Of a DNA stretch of 52,317 nucleotides, positions 19,213 through 28,743 are shown in pieces. Below the pieces are notes generated by a model. The model worked only from the letters and a program-made list of their open reading frames with translations. It had not been told where the DNA came from and searched no databases. Source of the stretch: Candidatus Nomurabacteria bacterium (GTDB lineage: Bacteria > Patescibacteriota > Minisyncoccia > Phycocordibacterales > UBA9973); contig CALRFQ010000004.1 in the NCBI GenBank assembly GCA_943356675.1, positions 1 through 52,317 on the forward strand. Reading direction: 5' to 3'. The position numbers were made by a program, and so were the translations under genes. Every line of letters begins with the position of its first letter. Position 1 is the first letter of the stretch.

Positions 19213-19542
19213 ATGGTAGATTTAAAGGAATTACAAAAGGAAGTAATAAGAAATAAAATCGAAAAAGGCTTCAATACTAGTGATATGGCGCTTGAATTTT
19301 GCCGTGCTCATGAGGAACTCTCAGAAGCATTCTCAAAGTACAACAAGAATCAGGATGGTGTTGCGGAAGAGTTTGCTGATGTGGCGATATTTCTTCTCGG
19401 CATGTGTGAATCACTTGGCTACGACATGGAGAAAGAATTAGTTAGAAAGATTGAGATAAATAAAAATCGTAAATACATCAAGAGTAAATCTCCAGATGGT
19501 AAAGATGTTTTCATAAGAGTGAAGAGCGATATAGATCCCTGA
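19213..19542 (+). CDS. MazG-like nucleotide pyrophosphohydrolase
   Basis: The 109-residue protein has the all-alpha NTP pyrophosphohydrolase metal motif: 'EFCRAHEELSEAF' (ExxE) followed by 'VAEEFADVAIFLLGM' (ExxD). These enzymes hydrolyse (d)NTPs to monophosphates and pyrophosphate, often cleaning up non-canonical nucleotides. The location beside folA and the thyA-like gene fits nucleotide pool control. It ends with TGA, which shows that TGA is a stop here. Confidence 0.85.
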   Translation: MVDLKELQKEVIRNKIEKGFNTSDMALEFCRAHEELSEAFSKYNKNQDGVAEEFADVAIFLLGMCESLGYDMEKELVRKIEINKNRKYIKSKSPDGKDVFIRVKSDIDP

Positions 19543-19544
19543 AT

Positions 19545-19571
19545 AAAAAACAGCCTAACGGCTGTTTTTTT
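19545..19571 (+). terminator. Shared bidirectional terminator between mazG-like and folA
   Basis: aaaaaacagcc/ggctgtttttt with a TAAC loop. T-runs lie on both strands, so it can end both convergent genes. The folA stop codon (19555-19557) lies inside the hairpin. Confidence 0.88.
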
Positions 19572-20052
19572 CATAGAGTACAAAATCGCAATTGAAATTA
19601 TTTTTCTCATCATGTGTGTGTTGTTCGTGCGAGACTTCTTTCCAGAAGGCAGGGTCTATAATAGGGAAGAATGCATCGGCATCGAAGTTGCCATCCACAT
19701 GTGTGATATAGAGTCTGTCTGCATGGTCCATAGCTTGCTTGTATATCTCTGCGCCACCAATTATGAAGACTTCGTCATTTATATCGTATCTAAATAGATC
19801 TATCGCTTCTGTGAGAGAGTGCACTACTTCTACTCCTTCTGCCACATAGGAAACGTCACGAGTGATTACAATGTTTCTTCTGTTTGGCAGTGGTTTCCCA
19901 ATAGACTCGAAAGTTTTGCGTCCCATTATTACAGGGTGGCCACTTGTCGTATCACGGAAGTGCTTCATATCTATCGGCAAATCCCAAAGAAGTTCATTAT
20001 TCTTCCCGATGGCATTATTTTTACCGATAGCTACGATTATTGAAAGTATCAT
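19555..20052 (-). CDS. folA: Dihydrofolate reductase
   Basis: The 165-residue protein is a standard DHFR: 'ILSIIVAIGKNNAIGKNNELLWDLPIDMKHF' contains the Met20-loop region and the catalytic Asp in 'PIDM'. 'HPVIMGRKTFESIGKPLPNRRNIVIT' and 'EVFIIGGAEIYKQAM' bind NADPH. It regenerates tetrahydrofolate after thymidylate synthesis. It lies 1 base downstream of the TrpR-like gene on the same strand, so the two are probably co-transcribed. Confidence 0.96.
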   Translation of the reverse strand: MILSIIVAIGKNNAIGKNNELLWDLPIDMKHFRDTTSGHPVIMGRKTFESIGKPLPNRRNIVITRDVSYVAEGVEVVHSLTEAIDLFRYDINDEVFIIGGAEIYKQAMDHADRLYITHVDGNFDADAFFPIIDPAFWKEVSHEQHTHDEKNNFNCDFVLYEKNSR

Positions 20053-20053
20053 A

Positions 20054-20335
20054 TTATTTCTTATACATCTTATTTAAAACTTTCGCAAAGCCACCATTCT
20101 TGTCTTGAAGCTCTTTAGAACCTCTGGTAATTGTGCCGATACCAATCTTAAGATCTTCAGCAATAGCCCACTGTTTCTCACCTTTATAAAGCCTATGCAT
20201 TATCTCCCAGCGCTTCGGTAGGGCATTGTATTCGCGGGCAGTAAGTATATCTTCAAGGAATGAGTTAAGTAGTGTAGTGTCCTTCGCAGCCACCATAAAT
20301 GCTTTTATGAGTTCCTCTTTGTAAGTATTTTTCAT
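20054..20335 (-). CDS. TrpR-family (YerC/YecD-like) transcriptional regulator
   Basis: The 93-residue protein aligns with E. coli TrpR over its core: 'LLNSFLEDILTAREYNALPKR' (TrpR 'LLNLMLTPDEREALGTR'), 'RLYKGEKQ', and the helix-turn-helix 'LKIGIGTITRGSKELQ' (TrpR 'LGAGIATITRGSNSLK'). The recognition helix is nearly the same, including the T-x-T-R that in TrpR touches DNA and tryptophan. An 18-bp palindrome with a trp-operator-like CTAG core lies upstream, suggesting autoregulation. Whether the ligand is tryptophan is open; YerC relatives often lack a known ligand. folA follows. Confidence 0.88.
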   Translation of the reverse strand: MKNTYKEELIKAFMVAAKDTTLLNSFLEDILTAREYNALPKRWEIMHRLYKGEKQWAIAEDLKIGIGTITRGSKELQDKNGGFAKVLNKMYKK

Positions 20336-20804: not shown

Positions 20805-20840
20805 TATACTTGCATACTAGTATACTAGTATGCAAGTATA
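20805..20840 (-). promoter_or_regulatory. 36-bp perfect palindrome with tandem CTAG cores (putative operator)
   Basis: Centre tactagta-tactagta flanked by tgca and tata arms: a perfect inverted repeat over 36 bp. CTAG occurs twice with 8-bp spacing, as in the E. coli trp operator ACTAGTTAACTAGT. It overlaps the likely promoter of the gene at 20449-20781. Confidence 0.75.
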
Positions 20841-20914: not shown

Positions 20915-21748
20915 TTATAGTGCTATTTCTAGGCCGTCGATAGGAGGGAGGGGATTGTATTGAGCTTGGAGGTCTCTTAGGATTTCGCCGACCAGTTCTT
21001 CATCTTTTGCCTCAGCACGCTTGAAGGTGTTCTCTGGTAAGTGCAGCTCTATATTCTTGTGGTCATTTGTGCGAGAGATTATTTCATTGGCACCTGCATA
21101 GTGGTTGTCGTAAATGTGAGCGTTTGAAATGGAATGTGTGTATATTCCAGGTTTCACTCCGAGGCGTTGCGCAATCATACATTGAAGAAGTGCGAAGCCG
21201 AAGGTGTCGAAAGGGCAACCGAGTATCATATCGTTTGAGCGGACGATGTTGTGCATATTGAGTCTGCCGCCGATTATGTTTATGGTGTATGTGTATGGGC
21301 AAGGCACGTTCTTCTTGGGTGTGCCTCCGTAGCCATCATCCTTTGGATCCCAAGTTACTATCACTCCATGTCGTGAGCTCGGTTCCTTCTCAAGGAGTTC
21401 TATCGCTTTGCCGAGTTGGTCACGACCGAAGTGGTTACGCCAGCGCCAGCCGTAAGCGGAAGAGAGTGTGCCATCTGGTTCTAGAAATGGGTCCCACATT
21501 TTTGTGAATTTACGAAGGAATGTAGTGTCTTTCTCGCCTTGCACAAACCACACTTGTTCCGCGATTGGGGACTTGAGCGGATTCTTTCTTAGAGTGAGCA
21601 CTGGGAAACCGTCCTTCTCTATGTCGAATTGGAAGGTGAGCCCTGGGATTGCTTTCGTCTTGTGCCCAGTGCGTTCATTGAGTTCTTCCACACCTTCTTC
21701 CATTATTCTCTTAATAATATTTTGGTAGATTGCATCAAATGTTGTCAT
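20915..21748 (-). CDS. thyA: Thymidylate synthase family enzyme with dCMP-type Asp (ThyA/dCMP hydroxymethylase-like)
   Basis: I start at the ATG at 21748 (277 residues), 7 bases after a TATAAT; the 380-residue track ORF is an artefact. The fold is ThyA: catalytic Cys150 in 'VPCPYTY', Glu64 in 'EQVWFVQGE', Arg170/Asp173 in 'VRSNDMILG', His211/Tyr213 in 'NAHIYDNH'. The spacing matches E. coli ThyA exactly (offset 4). At the position of Asn177, which reads the uracil ring, there is Asp181 ('CPFDTF'). That Asp marks dCMP hydroxymethylases such as T4 gp42. The enzyme may methylate or hydroxymethylate dCMP rather than dUMP. Family certain, substrate inferred; the gene symbol refers to the family. 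Confidence 0.88.
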   Translation of the reverse strand: MTTFDAIYQNIIKRIMEEGVEELNERTGHKTKAIPGLTFQFDIEKDGFPVLTLRKNPLKSPIAEQVWFVQGEKDTTFLRKFTKMWDPFLEPDGTLSSAYGWRWRNHFGRDQLGKAIELLEKEPSSRHGVIVTWDPKDDGYGGTPKKNVPCPYTYTINIIGGRLNMHNIVRSNDMILGCPFDTFGFALLQCMIAQRLGVKPGIYTHSISNAHIYDNHYAGANEIISRTNDHKNIELHLPENTFKRAEAKDEELVGEILRDLQAQYNPLPPIDGLEIAL

Positions 21749-21778: not shown

Positions 21779-22267
21779 ATGGAAAACATTAAATACCCGT
21801 ATTTGCCGGAAGGGAAGACTATATTGTATGTGCCGATCTCGAATGTTTTCATGGCGGAAGCAAAGGAGTTTGCTCGGAATAATTCTCTTGATAAAGTAAT
21901 GCCCAATGCAAGTATCTTGGTGAAGGATGGTGTAGTTGCTGGCCGTGGTGCCAATGGAAGCACATATCACGAGACGCATGAGTGTGAGAGGGTGAAGCTC
22001 AAGATGCCAACTGGTGTGGGCTATGAACTCTGCGAAGGTTGCCACCCGAAGAATCATGGAGAGCCAAAGGCAATAAAAAATGCGATAGATAATGGATACG
22101 ATTCAAAAGGTGGAGACATATATCTATGGGGGCACTGGTGGTGCTGTGAGCCATGCTGGAATACTATGATAGAGAATGGGATTAAAGATGTGTATTTGCT
22201 CGAGGATAGTGAGGTGCTATTTAATCGTGAAAATCCTGAGAATGTGATAGGTCATCAATTTGAATAA
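21779..22267 (+). CDS. Cytidine/dCMP deaminase-like zinc protein
   Basis: The start is the ATG at 21779; the track start lies inside the divergent thyA-like gene. The 162-residue protein has a deaminase layout: 'MPNASILVKDGVVAGRGANGST' (strands before the active site), 'HGEPKAIKNAI' (HxE, residues 93-95) and 'WWCCEPCWNTMIENGIKDVYL' (the PC helix). In the usual PCxxC the second Cys is Thr129, but Cys123 and Cys126 form a CxxC. Extra 'CEGC' and 'HETHEC' suggest a second metal site. The likely substrate is dCMP or a modified dCMP, given the neighbour. Family fairly sure, activity uncertain. Confidence 0.72.
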   Translation: MENIKYPYLPEGKTILYVPISNVFMAEAKEFARNNSLDKVMPNASILVKDGVVAGRGANGSTYHETHECERVKLKMPTGVGYELCEGCHPKNHGEPKAIKNAIDNGYDSKGGDIYLWGHWWCCEPCWNTMIENGIKDVYLLEDSEVLFNRENPENVIGHQFE

Positions 22268-22359: not shown

Positions 22360-23610
22360 ATGAGTACACGAGATAACGAAGTTTTTGATGCAATTGCAGG
22401 GGAGGCTATTAGACAAAGAGATGGACTAGAACTTATTCCTTCTGAGAACTACGTGTCCAAGGCTGTGCTTGAGGCCAATGGTTCGATAATGACAAATAAA
22501 TATTCTGAAGGTTACCCAGGCCGCAGATACTATGGTGGTCAAGAATACACAGACATAGTGGAGAGAATAGCAATTGAAAGAATTTGTAAGTTATTTGATT
22601 GTAAGTTTGCAAATGTTCAGCCTCACTCTGGTGCTCCTGCGAACCTCGCAGTATACGCTGCTCTCCTTGAGCCGGGTGATACAGTGATGGGTATGGATCT
22701 ATCCCACGGAGGCCACCTCACTCACGGCCATCCGATGACTCTTCCTGCGAAGATATACAAATTCGTGACTTACAAAATGAAAGACCCAGAGACTGGCGAG
22801 ATTGATTACGATGATATGCTACGCGTGGCTCGTGAAGAAAAGCCAAAATTAATTATTGCTGGATTTTCTGCATACCCTCGAACTCTCAATTACAAAAAGT
22901 TTGTGGAGATTGCAAAAGAAGTGGGAGCTATCACCATGGCAGACATGGCGCACATAGCAGGGCTCATTGCTGGAAAGGCAGCACGCAATCCATTTGAAGA
23001 TGGATTCGACATCATCACTTCCACTACTCACAAGACTCTTCGTGGTCCACGCGGAGGAATAATCCTTACTCGTGAGAGTGAAGAGATTGCTAAGAAGATC
23101 GACAAATCTATCTTCCCAGGAATTCAAGGAGGTCCACATATGCACACGATAGCTGCGAAGGCAGTGGCATTTGGCGAAGCAATGACGCCGGCATATCAAG
23201 AATACGCACAGCAAATTCTTAAAAATGCTAAAGCAATGGAAGAAGTTCTCAAGAAGAATGGTGTGCGCATGATTGGAGGGGGGACAGACAATCATCTAAT
23301 TCTCGCTGATGTTTTCGGCTCACTCGGAGTTACTGGCAAGGAAGCGCAGACAGTGCTTGATGAAGTGGGAATTACTCTCAATATGAATTCCATCGCTGGG
23401 GACACTCGTAAACCTCTTGACCCATCCGGAATCCGCTTCGGCACTCCTGCTATCACAACTCGCGGATTTAAAGAAGCTGATTGTGCGGAAGTTGCTCAGC
23501 TACTCATCGACACTCTCAAGAATAAAGACAATGCTGATATGAAAGTTGAAATTAAAGCCAAGGTGAAAGCCATGGCACAGAAATTCCCAATACCAGAGAG
23601 TTTCGTATAA
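22360..23610 (+). CDS. glyA: Serine hydroxymethyltransferase
   Basis: The 416-residue protein is a full-length SHMT: 'ELIPSENYVSKAVLEANGS', 'NKYSEGYPGRRYYGG', 'VQPHSGAPANLAVYAALLEPGD', and 'TSTTHKTLRGPRGG' with the PLP lysine near residue 225. It converts serine to glycine and makes methylene-tetrahydrofolate, the one-carbon donor of ThyA-type enzymes. Its position two genes from the thyA-like gene and close to folA completes the methyl transfer cycle. It follows a terminator, so it has its own promoter in the 50-base AT-rich leader. Confidence 0.97.
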   Translation: MSTRDNEVFDAIAGEAIRQRDGLELIPSENYVSKAVLEANGSIMTNKYSEGYPGRRYYGGQEYTDIVERIAIERICKLFDCKFANVQPHSGAPANLAVYAALLEPGDTVMGMDLSHGGHLTHGHPMTLPAKIYKFVTYKMKDPETGEIDYDDMLRVAREEKPKLIIAGFSAYPRTLNYKKFVEIAKEVGAITMADMAHIAGLIAGKAARNPFEDGFDIITSTTHKTLRGPRGGIILTRESEEIAKKIDKSIFPGIQGGPHMHTIAAKAVAFGEAMTPAYQEYAQQILKNAKAMEEVLKKNGVRMIGGGTDNHLILADVFGSLGVTGKEAQTVLDEVGITLNMNSIAGDTRKPLDPSGIRFGTPAITTRGFKEADCAEVAQLLIDTLKNKDNADMKVEIKAKVKAMAQKFPIPESFV

Positions 23611-26645: not shown

Positions 26646-27344
26646 ATGATAAAAAATAAAAAAGGAAAACTAATTGTAATAGATGGCACGGATGGAAGTG
26701 GGAAGAAGACACAAGTGGATTTACTAATGAAGCATTTGTCTAGCGAGGGGTATAAGGTGAAGATGGTAGACTTTCCGGATTACTCTTCAAATTTCTTTGG
26801 AGAATTCATCGGGCACTGCCTCTCTGAGCAATACTTCAACTTCGTAAATGTGCATCCGAAGATTGCTTCGGTCCTATACGCGGCAGATAGATTTGAAACG
26901 AAAGAGAAGATGGAGAAATGGCTAAATGACGGATTTATAATTATTGCGAACCGCTATGTGAGTGCAAACCAGATCCACCAAGGAGGAAAGATAAAGAATG
27001 CGAAAAAGCGCCAAGCATTTATCGAGTGGCTCGATGAGATGGAATACAAAGTTTTTAAAATTCCAAGACCAAATGTAGTTTTCTATTTAGATATTCCGAT
27101 TAATATTACAAAAAGGCTTCTTAAAGAGAGAAATAAAAGTACTTCACGATCCTACTTAGGGAAGAAGAAGGATGTTCACGAGAAAGATTTCTCATTTCTA
27201 GAAAATTCTAGAAAGAGCGCGGTTTGGCTCGCAAAGACTCAAAAGAATTATGTGCAAATCGATTGCGTTTCGAAAAATGTTCTCCGCACTCGCGAGGACA
27301 TACATGAAGAACTGTATAAAAAAGTAGGGAAGCTTTTAAAGTAA
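26646..27344 (+). CDS. tmk: Thymidylate kinase
   Basis: I start at the ATG at 26646, which follows the DUF1361 stop; the track start overlaps that gene. The 232-residue protein has a P-loop 'IVIDGTDGSGKKTQVDLL', the base-binding 'FPDYSS', the 'ANRYVSANQIHQG' motif (usual DRY..S) and 'VVFYLDIPINITKRLLKER'. It phosphorylates dTMP to dTDP. With the thyA-like enzyme, dUTPase and DHFR nearby, the thymidine nucleotide branch is nearly complete in this region. Confidence 0.9.
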   Translation: MIKNKKGKLIVIDGTDGSGKKTQVDLLMKHLSSEGYKVKMVDFPDYSSNFFGEFIGHCLSEQYFNFVNVHPKIASVLYAADRFETKEKMEKWLNDGFIIIANRYVSANQIHQGGKIKNAKKRQAFIEWLDEMEYKVFKIPRPNVVFYLDIPINITKRLLKERNKSTSRSYLGKKKDVHEKDFSFLENSRKSAVWLAKTQKNYVQIDCVSKNVLRTREDIHEELYKKVGKLLK

Positions 27345-27830: not shown

Positions 27831-28337
27831 ATGAGAATTCCGATAGTAAATGAACAGGATGAAGTTTTATATTATAAAGAACGTGAAGAGACTACCCGTG
27901 AAGAAATACGGCGTATTATTGGACTCAATGTTTTTAATGAAAAAGGTGAAGTCCTTATTGCAAAACGCCAATCCAATAAAAAAATTGATCCTAATTTATG
28001 GGGTCCGTCTGTGGCTGGCACAGTGGATGAAGGTTGTGATTATGATGATACTGTAGTTAAAGAAGCTGAAGAAGAAATAGGATTAAAAAATATAAAACCA
28101 ATATTTTTAAAAAAATATTTTTACGAAACTCCTAAAACAAGGCGCTACACACAGCTTTATTACGTCACAATAGATTCTGGTACAAAACTAACTTTGCAAG
28201 ATGAAGAAGTAGCTGAAATCAAATGGATTAGTATTATTGACTTAGAAAATTGGTTTAAAGAAAAGCCAAAAGATTTTATTCCATCATTCCAAAGGACAAT
28301 GAATAATATCAAAGAAATTAATGAAAATAAAAATTAG
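27831..28337 (+). CDS. Nudix hydrolase, isopentenyl-diphosphate isomerase-like
   Basis: The 168-residue protein starts 'MRIPIVNEQDEVLYYKERE', as in IDI/YfcD-type Nudix proteins. It continues 'LNVFNEKGEVLIAKRQSNKKIDPNLWGPSVAGTVDEG' and a Nudix helix 'VVKEAEEEIGL'. True type 1 IDI has a specific Cys/Glu pair that I cannot place with confidence, so general Nudix hydrolysis is as likely as isomerisation. Its end overlaps the dUTPase start by 17 bases in another frame, which points to translational coupling. Confidence 0.85.
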   Translation: MRIPIVNEQDEVLYYKEREETTREEIRRIIGLNVFNEKGEVLIAKRQSNKKIDPNLWGPSVAGTVDEGCDYDDTVVKEAEEEIGLKNIKPIFLKKYFYETPKTRRYTQLYYVTIDSGTKLTLQDEEVAEIKWISIIDLENWFKEKPKDFIPSFQRTMNNIKEINENKN

Positions 28338-28743
28338 AAAATTAAAAGAAGATGCGAAGTTGCCTACATATGCAAACCCGGGGGATGTGGGTATGGATAT
28401 GTATGCGATGGAGACAGTGACTATTCCTCCTATGGGGCACCACAGATTTTGGCATGGATTTGCACTGGAGTTTGAGAATGGCTATGCGGCTATAGTGAAG
28501 GATAAATCGAGCATTTCTAAAGCGGGGCTTCACACTATGGGAGGAGTTTTCGACGCGGGATTTAGAGGAGAATATAATACGCACGTAGTAAACCTTGGAA
28601 GCGAAGCGTATACTGTGGAAGCTGGCGACAAGGTGGCACAGCTCATCATTTACCCTGTGGCTATTGCGGAACTTGAGGAATCTGATACATTAAGTGAGTC
28701 AGTGCGTGGGGAAGGAAGCTTCGGCAGTACAGGCAAAAAGTAA
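28321..28743 (+). CDS. dut: dUTPase family protein (dUTP diphosphatase)
   Basis: The 140-residue protein has all five dUTPase motifs: 'PGDVGMDMYA' (1), 'VKDKSSISKAGL' (2), 'GGVFDAGFRGE' (3), 'AGDKVAQLII' (4) and 'RGEGSFGSTGKK' (5, the P-loop-like arm with the stacking Phe). It cleaves dUTP to dUMP and pyrophosphate as a trimer. In motif 3 the Tyr that packs on the deoxyribose is Phe; the catalytic Asp is present. The Phe resembles the dCTP deaminase relatives ('DPGF'), but motif 5 is dUTPase-like. Confidence 0.9.
   Translation: MKIKIRKLKEDAKLPTYANPGDVGMDMYAMETVTIPPMGHHRFWHGFALEFENGYAAIVKDKSSISKAGLHTMGGVFDAGFRGEYNTHVVNLGSEAYTVEAGDKVAQLIIYPVAIAELEESDTLSESVRGEGSFGSTGKK

Follow-up and report, generated by a model that had tools for sequence, protein, structure and literature searches.

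The window, that is, the whole 52,317-nucleotide stretch that was analyzed, carries at 20915..21748 on the minus strand a gene for a 277-residue ThyA-family protein (PF00303), which we predict to be a 5,10-methylene-tetrahydrofolate (methylene-THF)-dependent dCMP C5-methylase. Its conserved start is the ATG at 21748, with the mechanically called open reading frame (ORF) extending further upstream; a plus-strand gene over the same interval was ruled out, as those frames are full of stops. Computed from this start, the codon of Asp181, the counterpart of Asn177 at the pyrimidine-specificity position of E. coli ThyA, lies at 21206..21208 (minus strand). Thirty base pairs separate the start codon from that of a divergently oriented gene (21779..22267, plus strand; 162 residues), whose product is a distinctive zinc deaminase of the dCMP-deaminase superfamily (PF00383, 32.9 bits), predicted to act on 5-methyl-dCMP (or 5-methyl-dCTP).

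The neighboring genes encode dihydrofolate reductase (DHFR), which regenerates THF (19555..20052, minus strand; PF00186, 216 bits), and serine hydroxymethyltransferase (SHMT), which supplies methylene-THF (22360..23610, plus strand; PF00464, 520 bits). Further along the plus strand are genes for dTMP kinase (26646..27344; PF02223, 77.7 bits; TIGR00041, 86.4 bits against a cut-off of 83.25) and a housekeeping dUTPase (28321..28743; PF00692, 84 bits; TIGR00576 above its cut-off). A MazG-like nucleotide pyrophosphohydrolase (19213..19542, plus strand; PF12643, 28.4 bits) is a possible source of dCMP from dCTP; the idea that it is a specific dCTPase was rejected, since it occupies the same position beside an ordinary ThyA in three genomes of the same family (G307, G358, and G366). 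Directly upstream of the DHFR gene and downstream of the ThyA-family gene lies a TrpR-like repressor gene (20054-20335, minus strand), possibly a local regulator. Between it and the ThyA-family gene, a long inverted repeat of 16 pairs (20805-20840; TATACTTGCATACTAG) is a candidate operator or terminator. A terminator scan found 4 against 1.7 expected; in a sigma-70 scan the sequence did not exceed its shuffled versions.

The ThyA-family protein matches PF00303 over its full length in a Pfam profile search (192 bits, cut-off 24.3), and among the TIGRFAM/PRK equivalog cut-offs it passes that of TIGR03284 only. Its AlphaFold2 model is a confident thymidylate synthase (TS) fold (pLDDT 93.6), with ThyA structures as the best PDB matches (TM 0.73-0.85 on the query). 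Alignment to E. coli ThyA gives a constant offset of +4 (C146/C150, R166/R170, D169/D173, N177/D181, H207/H211, and Y209/Y213). In E. coli numbering, which we use below, R21, E58, W80, Y94, R126, C146, R166, S167, D169, H207, and Y209 are kept; with the profile match, the catalytic Cys and the folate and phosphate residues place the protein in the ThyA/TS superfamily. Changed positions are F83, H127, N143, P147, and D177. The alignment is gapless around D181, so that Asp stands where a canonical dUMP-dependent thymidylate synthase has Asn177. Both the spacing and this substitution had been noted in a sequence-only reading of the DNA, which took as precedent that Asn-to-Asp mutants of thymidylate synthase shift toward dCMP; the literature agrees, as Asn177Asp in ThyA shifts the enzyme to dCMP methylation and disfavors dUMP (PMC8670742).

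The substitution is fixed among relatives. We fetched 80 CPR loci encoding such enzymes (herein D-type; 52-88% identity to the window enzyme), the nearest named relatives being Nomurabacteria and other Paceibacterota. Asp177, Asn143, and Cys146 are present in 80 of 80, D181 forming an invariant alignment column, and so is Pro147, with Val in two D-type enzymes added later (G008 and G040). The 30 CPR ThyA proteins of the Asn type (N-type) fetched first all have Asn177 and His147, with Leu or Pro at 143, and Asn177 recurs in all 20 further non-D CPR ThyA proteins, the most divergent included. Given Asp in 80/80 against Asn in 30/30, Asp177 is not a chance substitution. Positions 177 and 147 have also been identified as the best separators of cytosine-modified from unmodified viral contigs (PMC8670742). 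At position 127, CPR D-type enzymes have His or Gln, whereas T4 dCMP hydroxymethylase and most Xp12-type phage enzymes have Arg. The search also turned up a subfamily of divergent ThyA proteins that keep Asn177 but have Gln or Pro in place of Arg21 and Thr in place of Arg127 (L148-L150, L153-L156, and L159; genomes G231, G249, G047, G322, G172, G212, G344, and G208), as well as two very divergent TS-family proteins that have AWPEN for GLPFN and lack Trp80 (L157 in G349 and L158 in G012).

A tree of 64 proteins places the CPR Asp177 enzymes in one clade (support 95/83). This clade groups with an Asp177 phage clade (100/100), and the Asn177 enzymes all fall on the opposite side (100/100), in a tree for which the program warned that long branches meet; the phage side consists of seven relatives, DoCa6 among them, and does not include the Xp12 sequence itself. 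The set Asp177/Asn143/Pro147 is common to the CPR enzymes and those of DoCa6, PaMx74, Mallos, ZQG1, RcRudolph, JWT, and RDJL3. DoCa6 is a Bosavirus, the genus to which Xp12 has also been assigned (PMC11946847); in Xp12 DNA, 5-methylcytosine replaces cytosine (PMC7653180), and its dCMP methylase is documented (PMC5175136). The tree, proposed in the sequence-only reading as a check, thus sets the CPR enzymes with Xp12-type phage enzymes and apart from those with Asn177.

In all seven phages examined (L115-L118 and L164-L166; Bradleyvirinae/Mesyanzhinovviridae, the others infecting Rhodobacter, Roseobacter, and Achromobacter), the gene for an Asp177/Asn143/Pro147 enzyme adjoins one for a dCMP deaminase. 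Their "thymidylate synthase" annotation probably conceals a dCMP methylase. Two IMG/VR contigs (L112 and L113) carry a CPR-type Asp177 enzyme together with a dUTPase; in L113 these are joined by an MT-A70 methylase, a kinase, and a dCMP deaminase of the ordinary kind. Such viruses may move the D-type gene among CPR bacteria.

The sequence-only reading had left the choice between a dCMP methylase and a dCMP hydroxymethylase on a CPR chromosome. dCMP hydroxymethylases are marked by an acidic residue (Asp or Glu) three positions N-terminal to the catalytic Cys, by a hydroxyl residue (Ser or Thr) two positions N-terminal to the catalytic Tyr, and by the lack of a C-terminal tail; in the T4 enzyme, the exchange D145N abolishes formation of 5-hydroxymethyl-dCMP (PMC6400193). 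At the position of T4 Asp145, the window enzyme and all D-type enzymes have Asn. At that of T4 Ser94 (Val93 in E. coli TS), where the T4 row aligns one residue off, the window enzyme and most relatives have Ala; L033 and G008 have Ser, and G040 has Gly. The C-terminal tail that covers the folate is present in the window enzyme to the last residue. Methylation yields dihydrofolate and requires DHFR, whereas hydroxymethylation proceeds without it. Of the 15 D-type genomes, 14 have a DHFR, and the one without it is 88% complete; the counts are 18 of 19 for N-type genomes, 2 of 18 for those with ThyX, and 0 of 5 for those with no synthase of any kind. Asn at the T4 Asp145 position, the tail, and the retention of DHFR favor a methylase and disfavor a hydroxymethylase, so that the window enzyme is better read as the former.

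The deaminase encoded across the 30-bp gap (herein the partner) is also distinctive. His92, Glu94, Cys122, and Cys125 are invariant in its 68 relatives and make up the HxE + CxxC zinc site of its superfamily, within a family motif, GHWWCCxxCW, that is unusual. Two marks of dCMP deaminases are missing: the family lacks the Pro of PCxxC, and in none of the 68 does the allosteric G(Y/W)N(A/G) motif hold an aromatic residue. The AlphaFold2 model (pLDDT 96) has T4 dCMP deaminase (1vq2) as its best PDB match. Of the 80 D-type loci as fetched, 69 include a partner gene, as do 41 of the 44 that extend 5 kb or more to each side; none was found in 30 N-type loci, which are short. It occurs either divergently upstream of the enzyme or downstream on the same strand, and these two arrangements indicate that the pairing has survived rearrangement. 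A tblastn search of 50,697 phage records gave no match at 1e-5, IMG/VR gave matches at two loci only (41% identity), and the deaminases of Xp12-type phages belong to another subfamily. Known dCMP deaminases accept 5-methyl-dCMP (PMC12088426). A specialized enzyme would make sense, because deamination of dCMP yields only dUMP, which a D-type enzyme should use poorly.

The pairing has exceptions. One D-type genome that is 99% complete (G318) has no partner and only a Cdd-type deaminase, and three well-covered D-type loci have none within about 6 kb. Conversely, in G362, a ThyX genome with no ThyA, a partner gene adjoins an ORF with two ThyX domains (L123; G362:C21:48507-50484), which suggests that the partner may also deaminate dCMP. 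It may be what is left of a cassette that was replaced, or this ThyX may use cytosine nucleotides. Tandem Thy1 pairs in one ORF of about 450-800 residues occur in many CPR genomes (e.g., G067:C1:260935-262290 and G137:C46:18505-19857).

We then consider what else these genomes hold for thymidylate synthesis. The window genome (G000; 719 kb, completeness estimated at 98.5%) has no second ThyA, no ThyX, and no thymidine kinase that we could find, the first two being a check that the sequence-only reading had called for. Among 380 genomes of the same phylum, with D-type called above 390 bits, 15 have a D-type enzyme, 193 another ThyA, 125 ThyX (10 with both), and 57 neither. A scan of genome contigs was pattern-based and used a CPR query, so bacteria outside the CPR may carry such enzymes too. 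Another ThyA, or a ThyX, occurs in 0 of 15 D-type genomes and 308 of 365 others (Fisher p about 4e-12, relatedness ignored), and the specific deaminase in 13 of 15 and 1 of 365, respectively (p about 3e-21, relatedness ignored). Two of the 15 have a thymidine kinase, one of them weak. Loss of dUTPase, looked for as a sign that dUMP is not needed, proved uninformative: 14 of the 15 have dUTPase-family genes. The 15 are spread over 14 families, and at least 6 of these also have members with ThyA; the cassette is therefore patchy rather than one inherited block.

The locus itself points to replacement in place. Two genomes of the same genus (G163 and G307) have an ordinary Asn177 ThyA within the same DHFR-ThyA-SHMT-tmk locus and also carry a dCMP deaminase of the ordinary PCxxC kind; the G307 locus reads tmk, SHMT, ThyA, DHFR, and MazG. 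In the window, the D-type enzyme sits in the ThyA slot, and the special deaminase lies between it and SHMT. The only PF00383 gene of the window genome is the partner; the ordinary dCMP deaminase is gone. More widely, dTMP kinase is found in the same neighborhood in 46 of 80 D-type loci. Asp177 with the co-varying Asn143 and Pro147, the grouping with Xp12-type enzymes, and the lack of a second ThyA or ThyX give good support for a chromosomal CPR enzyme of the dCMP type. The sequence-only view that it is no ordinary thymidylate synthase probably stands for the single reaction; that view overlooked the adjacent deaminase (21779-22267) and the replacement of ThyA in situ, which together probably leave dTMP as the net output.

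Most D-type lineages, the window clade excepted, have a further component. A protein of about 210 residues from the DCD family (dCTP-deaminase/dUTPase superfamily) is encoded near the enzyme in 49 of 80 loci, often directly downstream. In all aligned DCD proteins from D-type loci, Pro replaces the Glu that is catalytic in dCTP deaminase, whereas 4 of 4 DCDs from N-type genomes keep it; judged by this residue, the protein is probably a diphosphatase, not a deaminase, acting on dCTP or dUTP. About a dozen loci with the DCD-family protein also have a separate dUTPase.

What can be read directly from the genomes is thus the residues and their fixation, the pairing, the exclusion of other ThyA and ThyX, the retention of DHFR, and the ThyA locus shared with congeners. 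We infer the substrate and product of the enzyme, the level (mono- or triphosphate) at which the deaminase works, and the main source of dTMP. In the pathway we propose, Cys150 would attack C6 of dCMP while Asp181 contacts the cytosine at N3 and its 4-amino side and protonates it there; methylene-THF would donate the one-carbon unit, and hydride transfer would give 5-methyl-dCMP and dihydrofolate, the latter recycled via the neighboring DHFR and SHMT. The partner would then strip the 4-amino group, converting 5-methyl-dCMP to dTMP (or 5-methyl-dCTP to dTTP), and dTMP kinase would take the next step after dTMP. Enzyme and deaminase would together stand in for ThyA, drawing thymidylate from cytidylate with no dUMP stage. 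We consider it quite probable, on this genomic evidence, that dCMP to 5-methyl-dCMP to dTMP is the sole de novo thymidylate route of this bacterium, with dUMP bypassed. It is likely, too, that across many CPR lineages this dUMP-free pathway has taken the place of ThyA or ThyX, spreading as a cassette whose methylase has a common origin with the cytosine-modifying enzymes of phages. Counting against it are the partner-less genome and the three partner-less loci, the partner beside ThyX in G362, the retained dUTPase, and the change of Arg127; CPR cells may also import nucleotides.

Where deamination takes place is a matter of detail within this proposal. As a variant of it rather than its opposite, 5-methyl-dCMP might first be phosphorylated and 5-methyl-dCTP then deaminated to dTTP. 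This is the route of Xp12, dCMP methylase followed by conversion of 5-methyl-dCTP to dTTP (Feng 1978; Wang and Ehrlich 1982; Kuo 1982, cited through PMC5175136 and PMC12088426), and the Xp12 deaminase is specific for 5-methyl-dCTP (PMC12088426). We give this order of steps a small but appreciable chance: Xp12-type deaminases are of another subfamily, the partner has no match in the phage records searched, and dTMP kinase often lies nearby.

It is unlikely that the protein is instead an unusual thymidylate synthase still methylating dUMP, with Asp177 compensated by Asn143, Pro147, Phe83, and His127 and the partner an ordinary dCMP deaminase that feeds it dUMP. Such an enzyme would account for its being the only ThyA of the genome and replacing ThyA in situ, for the dUTPase in the window genome, and for the partner beside ThyX in G362, and ordinary dCMP deaminases do lie near N-type ThyA genes in CPR bacteria. 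Yet Asn177Asp in ThyA disfavors dUMP (PMC8670742), and the supposedly compensating Asn143 and Pro147 belong, with Asp177, to the set of Xp12-type phage enzymes. The partner forms a separate subfamily without the allosteric aromatic residue (0/68), nearly confined to D-type genomes, although N-type genomes have dCMP deaminases of their own. In most D-type lineages, moreover, the DCD homolog lacks the catalytic Glu, so that no dUTP would be made there.

More doubtful still is a role in DNA modification, in which 5-methyl-dCMP (or 5-hydroxymethyl-dCMP) would be phosphorylated and then, as happens in phages, incorporated into DNA, thymidylate coming from a host cell. CPR bacteria are thought to be host-dependent, neither kind of synthase was detected in 57 of the 380 genomes surveyed, and the closest characterized relatives of the enzyme serve phage DNA modification. 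The strict exclusion of other ThyA and ThyX, the in situ replacement, and the dedicated deaminase all point to dTMP supply instead. Hydroxymethylation is opposed by the residues and by DHFR, no glycosyl- or carbamoyl-transferase was recognized among the window proteins scanned (part of the ORFs), and thymidine kinase is absent from 13 of 15 D-type genomes.

To our knowledge, all cells with known de novo dTMP synthesis use ThyA or ThyX, both acting on dUMP. If the cytosine-first route proposed here is true, it would be a third cellular solution to making T, one that would avoid a dUMP/dUTP pool and leave dUTPase dispensable for dTMP supply; the bacterium would probably carry out the steps toward DNA thymine in the opposite order to other known cells. 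We found no report of such synthesis in cells in the open-license literature. The chemistry is already known from phage Xp12; the new part is its probable cellular use as a thymidylate pathway, which suggests that a phage-type DNA-modification pathway has come to serve core metabolism. The dTMP supply of CPR genomes in which these proteins are annotated as thymidylate synthase would have to be read differently, and the D-type enzymes would provide naturally occurring dCMP methylases on which the N177D specificity switch can be tested.

Set beside known systems, the CPR cassette resembles that of Xp12-type phages in Asp177, Asn143, Pro147, and Phe83, in combining a deaminase usually with DHFR and a pyrophosphohydrolase, and, as predicted, in methylating the cytosine nucleotide before deamination. 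The enzymes are 32-40% identical. The CPR cassette differs in being chromosomal and apparently the cell's only source of dTMP, in drawing its deaminase from another subfamily, and, in most CPR lineages but not that of the window, in having a deaminase-dead DCD-family protein instead of MazG. The partner shares with dCMP deaminases (T4 CD and human DCTD) the HxE + CxxC zinc motif and the fold (1vq2), at 18-26% identity among the structural matches, but has GHWWCCxxCW in place of TPCxxC, no aromatic residue in G(Y/W)N(A/G), and an extra conserved C-x-R and C-x-x-C region. T4 gp42 has the TS fold and Asp at the specificity position in common with the CPR enzyme, which in contrast lacks Asp145 and mostly Ser94, has a C-terminal tail, and is associated with DHFR. 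With E. coli ThyA the window enzyme shares the fold, catalytic Cys, folate-site residues, C-terminal tail, DHFR partnership, and genomic slot; it departs from it in Asn177 to Asp, His147 to Pro, Leu143 to Asn, and Trp83 to Phe.
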